Part shown: positions 8,753-17,690 of the stretch, piece after piece
How positions within the stretch are numbered: the stretch's first letter is position 1
Layout: each line of letters begins with the position of its first letter
IMG/VR virus record: IMGVR_UViG_3300025168_000115
Location: 1 to 54,144 of that record
Length of the DNA: 54,144 bases
Direction: 5' to 3' (one strand)
Source of the DNA: a virus
The notes under the pieces: generated by a model
What the model was told of the DNA's origin: nothing
The model's database searches: none
The model's input: the letters and a program-made list of their open reading frames with translations, nothing else
Program-made: the position numbers and the translations under genes

Positions 8753-10108
8753 TTATTTTCCTGCTTTCGCATATTTGTCTTTGAGCATTTGCAACGCATC
8801 CGACGTTGATTGCATTCTCTCTGCTGATTCGTCTCTGTCCAATATCTTGATGGTAACGTCAGACCAATCAACGAAAGCATCAAACACAAGGCCATCTGGG
8901 CCGTTCCGATTCTTCGCAACGAAAAGGCGGCCCTTGTTCGCTTGCTTGTCTTGCACAGTTCTCGATAGAGAAAAGATAAAGTCAGCAACGAAACACTTGT
9001 TAAACGCTTCAGAGATCGCTTCCATAGTGATAACTTCAGCATTGAGACCTCCTCGGTTTGTTTGAGATGCAGTCCAACAAGGGATCTCATAAGACTGAGC
9101 AAGCCCACGAAGACCTTCGTAGGTCTCCTCTAACTCATGACGCTTCTCTCCGGTTGCCCGTGGAGGTCGCAATAAGTCGGCATAGTCAACCAAGATCATA
9201 TCAGGCTCAATGCCTCTCTTCCGTAATTTCTCAATGTGATTTTTGAGAGTTGAAACGGAAGCTGATTTGGTTGGATACTCTTTGATAATTAGAGTACCTT
9301 GAAGGTCTTTTACTTTATTGACGATTTCTTTTTGTCTCTCTTTGTGTTCCTGAAGTGGTACGTCAGTTATACAGCAATCAAATCGTTGACCAACTGTCGT
9401 ATCTTTAAGTTCCAAAGTGTAATAAACGACAGTCTTGCCTTGCAAGAGAGCCTGTGTGGCCAAGTGAACGAGAACCATTGACTTTCCAGCACCTGTTGGA
9501 GCTACAACTACACCAAGTTCTGATTTGCCAAGGCCGCCCTTAACAATCTCATCCATTCGAGCCCATCCTGTTGAAATAGGATCTCTTGTTACAGATTCAA
9601 AACGCTTGAGTAGATCTTTACGGAAGTCATGACCAAAATTATTATCTGTACCAAGGACGAGTGCATCTTTGATAAGTTTCTCTATTTCCTCAAAGGAGGA
9701 AGACTTTAACAACGCTGCTGATTTCATCATTGCTTGCTTTAAGACTTGTTTACGACAGAAATCAATAGATTTGTCCTTGATGAAATCAAGTTCTTCTACT
9801 CCGTCAGATGTATGAATACGAGCGTAGAACTCTCTCACATCTTTTTGCGTAGCTTTATCATGGTGATTTAATTCTGTTCGCAACAAAGTCATCATCACTT
9901 CGTTATTTGGATGAGTATTATATTTGTTGCGATAGTTAATCAATGTTTGTGCGAAAATTTGCAAATACTTCTTTTCAAAGAAGGTGATATCTAAAACTTC
10001 CGTAATTTGATCGAAAAATGGTCGATCCTCCAACATGAGTTGGCATAAGTTTTCTTGAAAGTTTTTTCCGAAACGCATAAAGGTTTCGCTCTTGTTAAAT
10101 TCGTTCAT
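8753..10108 (-). CDS. DnaB-like replicative helicase (gp41-type)
   Basis: 451 residues. The C-terminal RecA-like core has Walker A APTGAGKS (about residues 205-212), Walker B DMILVDYADLLRP and a sensor region with WTASQTNRGG, the order found in DnaB/gp41 helicases. The N-terminal 180 residues are helical, as in the ring-collar domain. It unwinds DNA ahead of the fork, normally with a DnaG/gp61 primase that is not in this window. A consensus early promoter lies just upstream. It is followed after 24 bases by nrdJ. Confidence 0.85.
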   Translation of the reverse strand: MNEFNKSETFMRFGKNFQENLCQLMLEDRPFFDQITEVLDITFFEKKYLQIFAQTLINYRNKYNTHPNNEVMMTLLRTELNHHDKATQKDVREFYARIHTSDGVEELDFIKDKSIDFCRKQVLKQAMMKSAALLKSSSFEEIEKLIKDALVLGTDNNFGHDFRKDLLKRFESVTRDPISTGWARMDEIVKGGLGKSELGVVVAPTGAGKSMVLVHLATQALLQGKTVVYYTLELKDTTVGQRFDCCITDVPLQEHKERQKEIVNKVKDLQGTLIIKEYPTKSASVSTLKNHIEKLRKRGIEPDMILVDYADLLRPPRATGEKRHELEETYEGLRGLAQSYEIPCWTASQTNRGGLNAEVITMEAISEAFNKCFVADFIFSLSRTVQDKQANKGRLFVAKNRNGPDGLVFDAFVDWSDVTIKILDRDESAERMQSTSDALQMLKDKYAKAGK

Positions 10109-10138
10109 TTGTCCTCCCAGACTTTTATCGGTTATATA

Positions 10139-10167
10139 ATTATAACCTATAACGGTTCACTTGTCAA
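10139..10167 (-). promoter_or_regulatory. Early sigma70-type promoter (helicase gene)
   Basis: TTGACA at 10167-10162, a 17-base spacer, and a perfect TATAAT at 10144-10139. It drives the helicase and probably nrdJ. Unlike its siblings it lacks the TGT before the -10. Confidence 0.85.
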
Positions 10168-10173
10168 GTTTTT

Positions 10174-11124
10174 TCACTTATTTATTCTTCGAAACACCAA
10201 CTGCAAGTCTGTGAAGTTGAGATGGCCGGCATCATCAACAAAGAGCATTTGTGTGAACTTTATTTTATTGAATGTTGGTTCGAAGTCATTGATTGCTTTT
10301 TTGATGATCTCTCGATTCATCGGCCTGATGTTTGGGAATTGTAATTGCATGATCGCATAGTTGTCTTTGATTAACTGCTCATCCTTTTGAATGTTCTCGT
10401 GGATCTTAAGCTTTTTTCCGACCATCACACAGTCCTTTACAATATCTCCGACTTCATATTCGTCCTCTCTGATGAGATAGGGGAACCGCTTCGCAATAGT
10501 CTTAAGACCTGCTCCTTTGATCCCCGGTAAATTGTCCGACGAATCGCCAGCGATGGCTCGTGCTAATGCGAAGTTCTTTGGGTGAATCTTGAATTGTTCT
10601 ACGACAGTTTGTTCAGTTACAATTTTTTTCTGAATTGGTCGGTAAATTTGAACATCATCTCGACATAATTGAAAAAAGTCTTTGTCACTTGATATGATTG
10701 TCTTTTTCCAACCGGCATACTTTGGATGATTAATTACTAACGCAATAATATCATCCGCTTCCGTAAAGTCTGCAACAAGTTGGATCACAGGCATTTCATT
10801 TAGATATTCCATAAGTCTAATTTGCTGATATCCTTTATTGGCCTCTTCTTTGTCTTCAGGTATATCTATCATTCTTCGGTTGAATCTCACCGGTTTTCTT
10901 CCGCCTTTGTAGTTCTTGTTCATCGAACGTCGTCTCTGAGAGCCTTCATGGCCATCCCAGGCTATTATAACCTCATCAGCAGTAAAGTCCCTAGCTACCT
11001 TCTGAAGGCTCTTTAAGAAGCCTATGGTGCCCCCGATGGGCATACCATTTTTGTCCAGCTGTGGGCTTATTACATAGCTACGCAAAAACATGTTCAGCGC
11101 ATCGATTATTATTACATTTTTCAT
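10174..11124 (-). CDS. 5'-3' exonuclease / flap endonuclease (T4 RNase H type)
   Basis: 316 residues. FEN-family acidic clusters are visible in order: NVIIIDALNMF near the start, IIAWDGHEGSQRR, TEADDIIA near residue 121, SSDKDFFQL, and the helix-hairpin-helix GDSSDNLPGIKGAGLKTI around residues 193-210. The enzyme removes RNA primers and 5' flaps at the lagging strand. It stands in for the 5' nuclease domain of bacterial Pol I, fitting the polymerase-only family A enzyme at 20633. It overlaps the AlaRS-like gene by 4 bases, so both share the promoter at 12004. A 21-base piece of it recurs at 12099. Confidence 0.9.
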   Translation of the reverse strand: MKNVIIIDALNMFLRSYVISPQLDKNGMPIGGTIGFLKSLQKVARDFTADEVIIAWDGHEGSQRRRSMNKNYKGGRKPVRFNRRMIDIPEDKEEANKGYQQIRLMEYLNEMPVIQLVADFTEADDIIALVINHPKYAGWKKTIISSDKDFFQLCRDDVQIYRPIQKKIVTEQTVVEQFKIHPKNFALARAIAGDSSDNLPGIKGAGLKTIAKRFPYLIREDEYEVGDIVKDCVMVGKKLKIHENIQKDEQLIKDNYAIMQLQFPNIRPMNREIIKKAINDFEPTFNKIKFTQMLFVDDAGHLNFTDLQLVFRRINK

Positions 11125-11984
11125 TTGTCCTCCAGACTTTTTATGAAATCAATATCTATTCCCATGGTGTCGAACCACCACTCGTTGGACTTGTCTTTAA
11201 ACTTGGGTTTGTCCTTGTTTCTATTGTAGTTTTCTACAACCTTGTCTTGTCTCTTCTTCTCCTTAAGGTAGTGTTCATTATCCCAATCTGAACCCAATCT
11301 GTAGAGTTCCCTGAGAAGCTTGCGAAACACATAACCTTGCTCCTTGTTGCTTGGGTAATAACCAGAGTAAAGAAGCTTCTCGCATGCTTGGATTAGGATC
11401 TCTTCCCTTGTCTCTTCGTTATCTCCATTGACGAACATGTTAAGTCTTTGAAGACCAAATCCGACGTCAATGCACGTTCCAAGTGGGTTTACGATGTTTC
11501 CAATCTCGACGTCGTCCTTGAAGAACTCTGTGCAGTAGCCACCAATTTGTCCATCGGTCCACTTGCACTCTTCATCTGGTCTGACTTCTACATCATAGTT
11601 TTCGTAAAGGCTTTTCCAATCCTCCATCTTATCCGGATGGATGGTAACGTAATCTACTTTGATCCCTAGGGTGTCTTCGACGAACTCCATCCAAAAGTCA
11701 ACTGACTGCTGAACCGTAAGAGTCCTGAAAGAGAATAACCCTATCATATCAAAATAAAGATAGTGTGTTCCATCACCTATCTCCTCAAGGTCATTGAGTC
11801 TTATGCATGACTGCACGTTTGCTAGTGTTCCCGTCTCTTCCGACTTAAACCTCTCTTTGAATTGCTGCATTCCTGCAGGGCAAAACAATGTTGTATTGTC
11901 GTAAGGCCGGACATTGTCGTCCAATTGGAATTGAACTCCTTTGCTAGCACAAAAATTTCTATATAAATCAATTATATCTATCAT
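11121..11984 (-). CDS. Alanyl-tRNA synthetase-like catalytic fragment
   Basis: 287 residues from the ATG at 11984, chosen for CGGAGG 7 bases upstream; a longer reading would run through the promoter. It matches the N-terminal third of AlaRS: TTLFCPAGMQQFKERF (31-46), class II motif 2 region QSCIRLNDLEEIG then YFDMIGLFSF (58-86), motif 3 DVGFGLQRL (173-181), and PSNKEQGYVFRKLLREL (211-227), which corresponds to the PSNxGxGYVLRRIIRR start of the tRNA-binding region. The rest of that region, the editing domain and the C-Ala domain are absent (AlaRS is about 875 residues). It probably activates alanine or a related acid; the acceptor is unknown. Confidence 0.75.
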   Translation of the reverse strand: MIDIIDLYRNFCASKGVQFQLDDNVRPYDNTTLFCPAGMQQFKERFKSEETGTLANVQSCIRLNDLEEIGDGTHYLYFDMIGLFSFRTLTVQQSVDFWMEFVEDTLGIKVDYVTIHPDKMEDWKSLYENYDVEVRPDEECKWTDGQIGGYCTEFFKDDVEIGNIVNPLGTCIDVGFGLQRLNMFVNGDNEETREEILIQACEKLLYSGYYPSNKEQGYVFRKLLRELYRLGSDWDNEHYLKEKKRQDKVVENYNRNKDKPKFKDKSNEWWFDTMGIDIDFIKSLEDK

Positions 11985-12003
11985 AATATGTCCTCCGTAT
12001 GAT

Positions 12004-12032
12004 AATATAACATGTCTAAGGCGACGTGTCAA
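12004..12032 (-). promoter_or_regulatory. Early sigma70-type promoter (AlaRS-like gene)
   Basis: TTGACA at 12032-12027, 17-base spacer ending in ACATGT, TATATT at 12009-12004. It lies 20 bases before the AlaRS-like start and also serves the flap endonuclease gene. Confidence 0.85.
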
Positions 12033-12044
12033 GTAAAAAGGGTA

Positions 12045-12089
12045 AAAAAAAACCCCAACTCCGAAGAGAAGGGGTTTATGAGTAACTTC
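12045..12089 (-). terminator. Rho-independent terminator, copy A of a duplicated element
   Basis: The coding strand forms AACCCC ... GGGGTT with an inner CTC-TTCG-GAG stem, followed by nine T. It ends transcription of 12126..12647. The same 45 bases with one mismatch occur at 12690-12734. Confidence 0.85.
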
Positions 12090-14040: not shown

Positions 14041-14281
14041 TTGTTACTCCTTCGTTTGTATTAGTAGTTTTGGTTGAAGTCGAAGTGACTTCTGTTTTAG
14101 GTTGCTCAAGTGTGATAGCATTAACATCTTTAGCAACTTCGACTGTAACGTCTGCAGTTTTTTCATTAGTTGTCTCCTTCGTTTCTATTGTAGCAACTTC
14201 GGCTGCTGTAGTTGTGGAGTCTACATTGTTTGTGACTTCCTTCTCTCCGCAAGCAAAGAGCATTGTTAGTAGTAACATCAT
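14033..14281 (-). CDS. Small Thr/Glu-rich lipoprotein
   Basis: 82 residues. MMLLLTMLFACGEKE is a short signal with lipobox LFAC, nearly the same as the next gene. The mature chain is low-complexity, rich in Thr, Glu, Val and Ala, and less acidic than its neighbour. The shared signal and gene overlap point to duplication followed by divergence. It overlaps the end of the ClpP-like gene by 4 bases. Membrane-anchored, unknown role. Confidence 0.7.
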   Translation of the reverse strand: MMLLLTMLFACGEKEVTNNVDSTTTAAEVATIETKETTNEKTADVTVEVAKDVNAITLEQPKTEVTSTSTKTTNTNEGVTND

Positions 14282-14889
14282 GTTACCTCCTTTAGTTTTA
14301 TATCTAATTTTATATTTATTTCTAATTTTGGCATACCAACTTTGTCGGCTAATCCAAGGTCAATCGCTTCTTTAGATTCAATGAACCAGTCGGCACGACC
14401 TTTCTCGTTTAACTGTTTGTTAAACCATTTCTCTGACTTGTTTGAGTTTGCTGATAGGATTTTGTAAATCTTCTCATTCAAACGCTTCACCTCTTCTGCA
14501 CTTGCTTGAATCTCCGAGTTCTTACCCCATGAGGCGGAACTTACATCGTGGATCATCAATGTTGCGTCTTCTGTTATGTATCGATATCCTTCGGTTCCAC
14601 AAGAGAACAGAATGACTCCACAACTCATAGCCTTTCCTTCGACTATGGTTGCTACCGGTAATTCAGAGTTCTTGATGGATGCGATCATACTCATGAGAGA
14701 GTAGACTTGACCTCCATAAGAATCAATGATTACTGGAATAACAGATTGACCCGTATTGTGTGCCGAAGCCATCTTCTCTGCGAACTCCTTCGCTGATTTT
14801 TCATCAAACTTGTTAACTCTGATGATGACCGGGCTGCTTCTTAATTCAACAGATTTTATATTACTGTCAATATTTCTTTTCCATAACAT
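14278..14889 (-). CDS. ClpP-family serine protease
   Basis: 203 residues from the ATG at 14889, preceded by AAAGGAG at 6 bases. ClpP landmarks: PVIIDSYGGQVYSLMSMIAS, the catalytic Ser in GKAMSCGV, the catalytic His in ATLMIHDVSS, and the Asp in KGRADWFIESKEAIDLGLADKVG. The Asp-containing end closely follows host ClpP. Phages use ClpP-like proteins either as prohead proteases or as regulators; here a separate gp21-type prohead protease exists and the gene lies in the early region, so a host-protein-degrading or ClpP-replacing role is more likely. No partner ATPase is present here. Confidence 0.85.
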   Translation of the reverse strand: MLWKRNIDSNIKSVELRSSPVIIRVNKFDEKSAKEFAEKMASAHNTGQSVIPVIIDSYGGQVYSLMSMIASIKNSELPVATIVEGKAMSCGVILFSCGTEGYRYITEDATLMIHDVSSASWGKNSEIQASAEEVKRLNEKIYKILSANSNKSEKWFNKQLNEKGRADWFIESKEAIDLGLADKVGMPKLEINIKLDIKLKEVT

Positions 14890-17352: not shown

Positions 17353-17436
17353 TGCTCGAGTAGGGATTTGAACCCCACAATTCTAACGTTATAGAGCGCC
17401 TGCCCACGTTAGTTATCTGCAACCGTACAGTCGAGC
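17353..17436 (-). tRNA. tRNA-like element, atypical or degenerate
   Basis: 84 bases. A T-arm is clear (TGGGG-TTCAAAT-CCCTA) and the ends pair as an acceptor stem (GCTCGA with TCGAGC), with discriminator A and no encoded CCA. Between them no normal D-arm plus seven-base anticodon loop can be drawn: the best stems are CTAACG/CGTTAG enclosing 18 bases, or a four-pair stem with a six-base loop. I therefore cannot assign an anticodon. It may be a decayed tRNA, one with an insertion, or a structural mimic. Confidence 0.4.
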
Positions 17437-17531
17437 TAATAAGGTGAAGAAAGAGGAGGTGGTTTGATTTCGCTCTCGATGATTTGAGGATCCTCATACG
17501 AAACCAACAATGTTATTATAAAAATAATCAC
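17436..17531 (-). CDS. Possible 31-residue membrane peptide
   Basis: GTG start with AGGAGG four bases upstream, then a hydrophobic stretch IIFIITLLVS and a polar tail YEDPQIIESEIKPPPLSSPY. The stop codon touches the first base of the tRNA-like element. The ribosome site is one arm of a perfect 12-base inverted repeat (17449-17460 with 17535-17546). A small ORF with a strong ribosome site is suggestive, but conservation is untested. Confidence 0.35.
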   Translation of the reverse strand: MIIFIITLLVSYEDPQIIESEIKPPPLSSPY

Positions 17532-17604: not shown

Positions 17605-17690
17605 TGGTACGCCAGGTAGGATTCGAACCTACGATGGGTGTTACCCGTCGCCTTAGAAGGGCGATACCATATCCACTAGGTGACTGACGC
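17605..17690 (-). tRNA. tRNA-Arg (anticodon UCU)
   Basis: 86 bases with encoded CCA. Acceptor GCGTCAG/CTGGCGT, D-arm ACC ... GGT, anticodon stem TCGCC/GGCGA around loop CTTCTAA (anticodon TCT), T-arm GTAGG-TTCGAAT-CCTAC, discriminator A. The region between anticodon and T-arms is about 15 bases (CGGGTAACACCCATC) and can form a GGG/CCC hairpin, which is long for arginine. It decodes AGA, a codon favoured in low-GC phage genes. Confidence 0.9.

Follow-up and report, generated by a model that had tools for sequence, protein, structure and literature searches.

A probable minimal alanyl-tRNA synthetase encoded in the replication module of a phage

The IMG/VR virus record IMGVR_UViG_3300025168_000115, which derives from a marine phage and was analysed here over its full 54,144 nucleotides (the window), contains a gene for a 287-residue protein related to alanyl-tRNA synthetase (AlaRS), which we refer to as mini-AlaRS. 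Judging from its sequence and its structural model, we regard this protein as a catalytically competent minimal AlaRS that charges tRNA-Ala, a reading to which we assign a probability of roughly 0.78.

The mini-AlaRS gene, its fold and its residues

The open reading frame (ORF) of mini-AlaRS was confirmed on the minus strand (Table 1). Its stop codon shares four nucleotides (ATGA) with the start of the exonuclease gene of the same operon, and a sigma70-type site with 11 of 12 matches precedes it, in agreement with the preliminary description, which had placed the gene under a strong promoter together with the flap endonuclease. In the surrounding region as a whole, promoter-like sites are no more frequent than in shuffles. 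The nearby genes scanned also include those for DnaB, RecA, a gp32-like protein, ClpP, and a B12-dependent ribonucleotide reductase, and the neighbourhood is a T4-like replication module.

The protein matches the Pfam family PF01411 (tRNA-synt_2c) with E=6e-21 and 75 bits, above the cut-off of 30.3, and TIGR00344 (alaS) with E=1.9e-21 and 76 bits; the full-length equivalog cut-off of the latter, 457, is missed as expected for a protein of only 287 residues. Its sequence matches in the PDB are exclusively AlaRS, and PHROG returned only a weak match to a family of unknown function. An AlphaFold run from the single sequence (predicted local distance difference test, pLDDT, 45) was replaced by one on a 25-sequence alignment, which gave a pLDDT of 92.1 and a predicted template modelling score (pTM) of 0.85. 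The top 26 PDB matches of this model in Foldseek are all AlaRS, followed by the GlyRS alpha chain, with template modelling (TM) scores of 0.77-0.80 for the best AlaRS structures; the model thus matches the AlaRS core against which the preliminary description had proposed to compare it. By hhalign, the entire protein covers residues 5-417 of the 876-residue Salmonella AlaRS (E=3.9e-20).

Residue conservation was judged over 25 diverse family members with 46-79% identity. The class II motifs named earlier (motifs 2 and 3) are all present as quoted, no member has lost the arginines R62 and R180, and the conservation of the catalytic residues makes the activation of an amino acid, as previously suggested, likely on sequence grounds. 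In E. coli AlaRS, N303 reads U70 and D400 reads G3 of tRNA-Ala (PMC10036535), and both have equivalents in mini-AlaRS. Because the alignment enters the tRNA-recognition module, reaching residue 417 of AlaRS, and N213 and D272 are kept, the sequence indicates more than a bare catalytic core, with both ends of the recognition module retained; in this respect the description of a protein cut down to its catalytic core was too narrow. It was right about the missing domains, as the alignment stops at the equivalent of residue 417 and the protein lacks the editing domain and C-Ala, along with several inserts. Owing to the absence of these two domains, the protein is, by its sequence, a non-canonical AlaRS. 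In a normal AlaRS, C-Ala grips the tRNA elbow.

Against the closest usable relative (L063, 97% identical), the ratio of nonsynonymous to synonymous substitution rates (dN/dS) is 0.054, and mini-AlaRS is therefore under strong purifying selection. Compared with other relatives, dN is 0.06-0.13, with synonymous sites near saturation.

Table 1. Positions of genes, signals, and key residues of mini-AlaRS in the window
Feature	Position	Strand	Basis or remark
mini-AlaRS gene, 287 aa, ATG start	11121..11984	-	ORF, profile, structure, and residue evidence
Shine-Dalgarno GGAGG, 7 nt 5' of the mini-AlaRS ATG	11992..11996	-	
Sigma70-type promoter TTGACA-17-TATATT, extended TG, 11/12 matches	12004..12032	-	
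GC stem-loop and T run, likely terminator of the preceding gene	12050..12079	-	read by eye
5'-3' exonuclease (flap endonuclease) gene, same operon	10174..11124	-	PF02739, E=5e-27
R62, motif 2 arginine (AlaRS R69, crystal numbering)	11799..11801	-	invariant in 25 members
W142, alanine-pocket tryptophan (AlaRS W170)	11559..11561	-	invariant in 25 members
N163, alanine-pocket asparagine, EIxNIV strand	11496..11498	-	invariant; Gln at equivalent AcmF position
D173, binds the alpha-amino group (AlaRS D235)	11466..11468	-	invariant; Glu at equivalent AcmF position
R180, motif 3 arginine (DVGFGLQRL)	11445..11447	-	invariant
N213 (YYPSN), E. coli AlaRS N303 equivalent, U70 reader	11346..11348	-	hhalign; role from PMC10036535
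D272 (WWFDTMGID), E. coli AlaRS D400 equivalent, G3 reader	11169..11171	-	hhalign; role from PMC10036535

Distribution, linkage to tRNA-Ala genes and alternative functions

Homologues were found at 23 IMG/VR loci by single-sequence search and at 64 by profile search, on contigs of up to 508 kb, and the 635-kb phage LR745206.1 encodes one with 56% identity. A further 49 loci are bacterial, mostly on Rhizobium plasmids and chromosomes, and the gene is present on 90 Rhizobium plasmids. The bacterial members are named ‘alanine--tRNA ligase-related protein’ in RefSeq; one of them (WP_028743334.1, plasmid pRL9) shares about 52% identity with the window protein and has the same length and architecture. 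Both bacterial genomes checked also encode a full-length AlaRS elsewhere. In the phylogenetic tree, the clade of the window protein consists entirely of phages (support 100/99), and the Rhizobiales clade is nested within the phage diversity, adjoining L093/L104 with moderate support; mini-AlaRS was apparently passed from phages to Rhizobiales. On the four Rhizobium plasmids examined (e.g., NC_008379.1 92660-93562), the gene is stably maintained next to an Xre-RES toxin-antitoxin pair. In the open-access literature, we found no account of an AlaRS-like protein of such size from a phage or from Rhizobium.

An enzyme that charges tRNA-Ala predicts linkage to tRNA-Ala genes, and in many phages such genes, with several anticodons, lie 6-2400 nt from mini-AlaRS. 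In LR745206.1, mini-AlaRS is located inside a tRNA array with tRNA-Ala(TGC) 372 nt downstream; in other phages tRNA-Ala genes (TGC, GGC, CGC) are found at distances of 6, 65, 208, 875, and 1629 nt. Five large phages carry 11-61 tRNAs each, and every tRNA-Ala seen in them sits at the mini-AlaRS gene, whereas their other tRNAs form distant clusters spread over hundreds of kb. This clustering was matched in 0 of 200,000 label shufflings (p<5e-6); the shuffling treats clustered tRNAs as independent, and the remote tRNA distances in LR745206.1 were approximated. The G3:U70 pair is present in 31 of 31 tRNAs with alanine anticodons (NGC), compared with 1 of 167 other tRNAs. Three ARAGORN predictions of ‘tRNA-Ala(agc)’ were set aside as probably misfolded other tRNAs (U3:A70). 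Within the window clade, the two longest contigs (204 kb in total) contain three tRNAs, two of which are tRNA-Ala(TGC): one is the sole tRNA of the 84-kb contig, and the other accompanies tRNA-Asp on the 120-kb contig. In these two longer relatives of the window phage (79% identity), tRNA-Ala has G3:U70.

In LR745206.1, a huge phage with 61 tRNAs, the core of a class II synthetase (246 residues, PF00587; by eye, GlyRS-like) lies just upstream of mini-AlaRS, with Thg1 next, and the phage also encodes a TilS-like PP-loop protein (L026:7226-7966, 9406-10245, 14059-14646); it possibly holds more miniature synthetases. ARAGORN predicted four-base anticodons (gtag, ggaa) in arrays (L035, L200/L207) of the huge phages LR745206.1 and IMGVR_UViG_3300049793_000366.

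Several observations weigh against tRNA-Ala charging. Mini-AlaRS has lost a large part of the helical recognition domain (approximately AlaRS residues 323-385), and a fragment of E. coli AlaRS comprising residues 1-461 is a poor tRNA binder (PMC10036535). N213 and D272 are variable in other family members, as they are in Tupanvirus AlaRS. The 54-kb window lacks tRNA-Ala, its sole tRNA being tRNA-Arg(TCT), tRNA-Ala is likewise absent from other fragments belonging to close relatives, and no tRNA gene lies close to the Rhizobiales homologues. As to the window phage, either the record is a fragment that misses the gene or the tRNA-Ala of the host is used. Ordinary tRNA-Ala is the indicated partner, and, given the linkage of the family to phage tRNA-Ala genes, mini-AlaRS very probably serves the phage in charging alanine for translation and not in an exotic role. 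Catalysis would proceed without an editing domain and without C-Ala, and the phage would express the enzyme along with its replication genes, presumably so that tRNA-Ala, whether from phage or host, stays charged during infection.

The exotic substrates considered in the preliminary description find no support. The most serious alternative, though an unlikely one, is that mini-AlaRS has been repurposed as an AlaRS-like transferase or ligase and passes alanine on to something other than tRNA, such as a small molecule, a nucleotide, or a protein. Truncated AlaRS-like proteins with new chemistry do exist, as illustrated by AcmF from ascamycin biosynthesis (PMC12945691), the missing tRNA-binding parts would suit a loss of tRNA charging, and the Rhizobiales members have no tRNA beside them. 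However, AcmF, which uses Ala-tRNA as donor, has lost the activation residues (N219Q, D232E), whereas the corresponding N163 and D173 are kept in all 25 members, and AcmF-like chemistry was rejected on this basis. Moreover, a scan of ten neighbours of mini-AlaRS identified no genes for biosynthesis or DNA modification, and the phage members are linked to tRNA-Ala.

Less probable still is an inhibitor or decoy that would lower host translation by pairing falsely with host AlaRS or by binding tRNA-Ala. Truncated copies of host proteins often serve phages as modulators. A decoy would have no need for strict conservation of catalytic residues, which here exceeds that of the surface; and although prokaryotic AlaRS is a dimer or tetramer, dimerization resides in C-Ala, which mini-AlaRS lacks (PMC10036535). 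A protein-modifying enzyme, e.g., a lysine lactyl- or alanyl-transferase acting from the adenylate, is very improbable: AARS1 and AARS2 are reported to be lactyltransferases, but nothing in the genome context points to such a role and the family is linked to tRNA-Ala.

The preliminary description had also proposed a tRNA-like element (window 17353-17440, minus strand) as a possible partner. This element has good acceptor and T arms and an anticodon loop enlarged by about 13 bases to 20 nt, received no score from ARAGORN or Rfam, and is possibly a decayed or intron-like tRNA. That mini-AlaRS charges it, or the tRNA-Arg at 17605, is scarcely credible: these are the sole tRNA or tRNA-like sequences in the window, but their 3:70 pairs are U:A and G:C, respectively, instead of G:U, neither has an alanine anticodon, and the core of the element was seen only in the window phage and one near-identical contig, whereas the enzyme is widely conserved.

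A frameshift-like leader in relatives

The window gene has an ordinary start and no leader. In contrast, no in-frame start exists near the conserved N-terminus at 44 of 48 bacterial loci (L158, L150, L173, and 41 more) and in about a dozen phage members (L026, L074, L078, L086, L090, L093, L098, L102-L104, L107, L132, L284). In both groups, a Shine-Dalgarno and start codon open a tiny ORF, with AlaRS in the -1 frame, and the zero frame invariably has an alanine codon (GCN) at the junction. In the phages, the opening signal is GGAGG-ATG (or GTG), and the AlaRS frame would be entered at XXA[C/A]-GCN. The leader at the 44 bacterial loci reads aGGAGGttgcct-ATG-nCn-nnG-C[GT]G-GAC-GCC-T[GA]A, and almost every ORF in it encodes M-[ST]-x-[RL]-D-A-stop. 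The third bases of GGA and CGC, silent in the -1 frame, are fixed (44/44 each), whereas downstream third bases vary; therefore, the zero frame is constrained. Rhizobium plasmid records disagree on the annotated start codon of mini-AlaRS, as would be expected if there is no true in-frame start.

The leader is single copy in ten phage genomes and in six of seven bacterial genomes (4-8 Mb), one of which has a second, less exact match (three mismatches); in the seventh the leader spacing differs, so that the search pattern missed it. The leader is not exclusive to AlaRS. In phages without mini-AlaRS it also stands before the genes of an unrelated protein family (100-131 aa; ‘...KFRRMSELYR...PHWWLDS...’; L118, L124, L129, L120, L126, L233-L257, L262-L275), often inside tRNA arrays, which has no Pfam or PHROG match. 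Among its members, collected by protein search, the zero-frame junction codons are AAC, AAA, or CAA, always followed by GCN, and the -1-frame residue shifts from Arg to Ser. As this residue changes while GCN is constant, it is the alanine codon, and not the -1-frame arginine, that is conserved. Three members have an ordinary ATG and no leader, and a possibly related family of 137-147 aa occurs at L123, L127, and L133.

Reinitiation at an overlapping CTGA was also considered, as CTG overlaps TGA in 43 of 44 bacterial leaders; however, this explanation fails for most phage leaders, whose stop is not overlapped by any start codon. Seven leaders were searched for a stimulatory RNA structure further downstream, and none was consistently found; in some of them the automatic anchor may have missed the junction. 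In one Rhizobium lentis copy (L167:7977-8006), ACG stands where the leader normally has ATG, which may be a natural loss of the switch proposed below.

We tentatively suggest, at slightly less than even odds, that the family uses a translational switch in which a -1 frameshift at a hungry alanine codon turns on AlaRS in response to a shortage of Ala-tRNA. Ribosomes short of Ala-tRNA would pause at this codon and shift into the frame of AlaRS, confining AlaRS production to times of need in a manner analogous to release factor 2. According to a 2016 review, ‘no examples are known’ of hungry-codon frameshifting that serves to make starvation-specific trans-frame proteins (PMC5009743).

Comparison with known synthetases and significance

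Mini-AlaRS shares with canonical bacterial AlaRS the class II motifs, the alanine pocket, the equivalents of N303 and D400, and the PSNxxxGYVxRxLLR helix; however, it is one third as long, with the inserts and the recognition domain reduced in addition to the two missing domains. The nearest described enzyme is the Tupanvirus AlaRS (TuAlaRS, 461 aa). It likewise does without an editing domain and C-Ala; it charges tRNA-Ala and complements a yeast knockout (PMC10036535). Like mini-AlaRS, TuAlaRS and the giant-virus AlaRS of 464-513 aa (Terrestrivirus A0A3G4ZSP6 and Yasminevirus A0A5K0U818) are viral proteins with catalytic and recognition parts only. They differ in size (461-513 aa versus 287 aa), in the recognition part, which is much reduced in the window protein, and, for TuAlaRS, in origin, since it is a eukaryotic-virus enzyme derived from its host. 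TuAlaRS charges tRNA-Ala despite having lost the N/D pair (PMC10036535), which is kept in the window protein. Among phages, a survey of huge genomes reported up to 15 aminoacyl-tRNA synthetases per genome, with no mention of an alanyl enzyme in the main text (PMC7162821).

Mini-AlaRS would be, to our knowledge, the smallest AlaRS, below the 461-residue Tupanvirus enzyme, and, if active, would define the least protein able to read G3:U70 and charge tRNA-Ala. It is an AlaRS carried by phages and linked genetically to their tRNA-Ala genes. The leader of its relatives, if confirmed, would make hungry-codon frameshifting a sensor of aminoacyl-tRNA supply.
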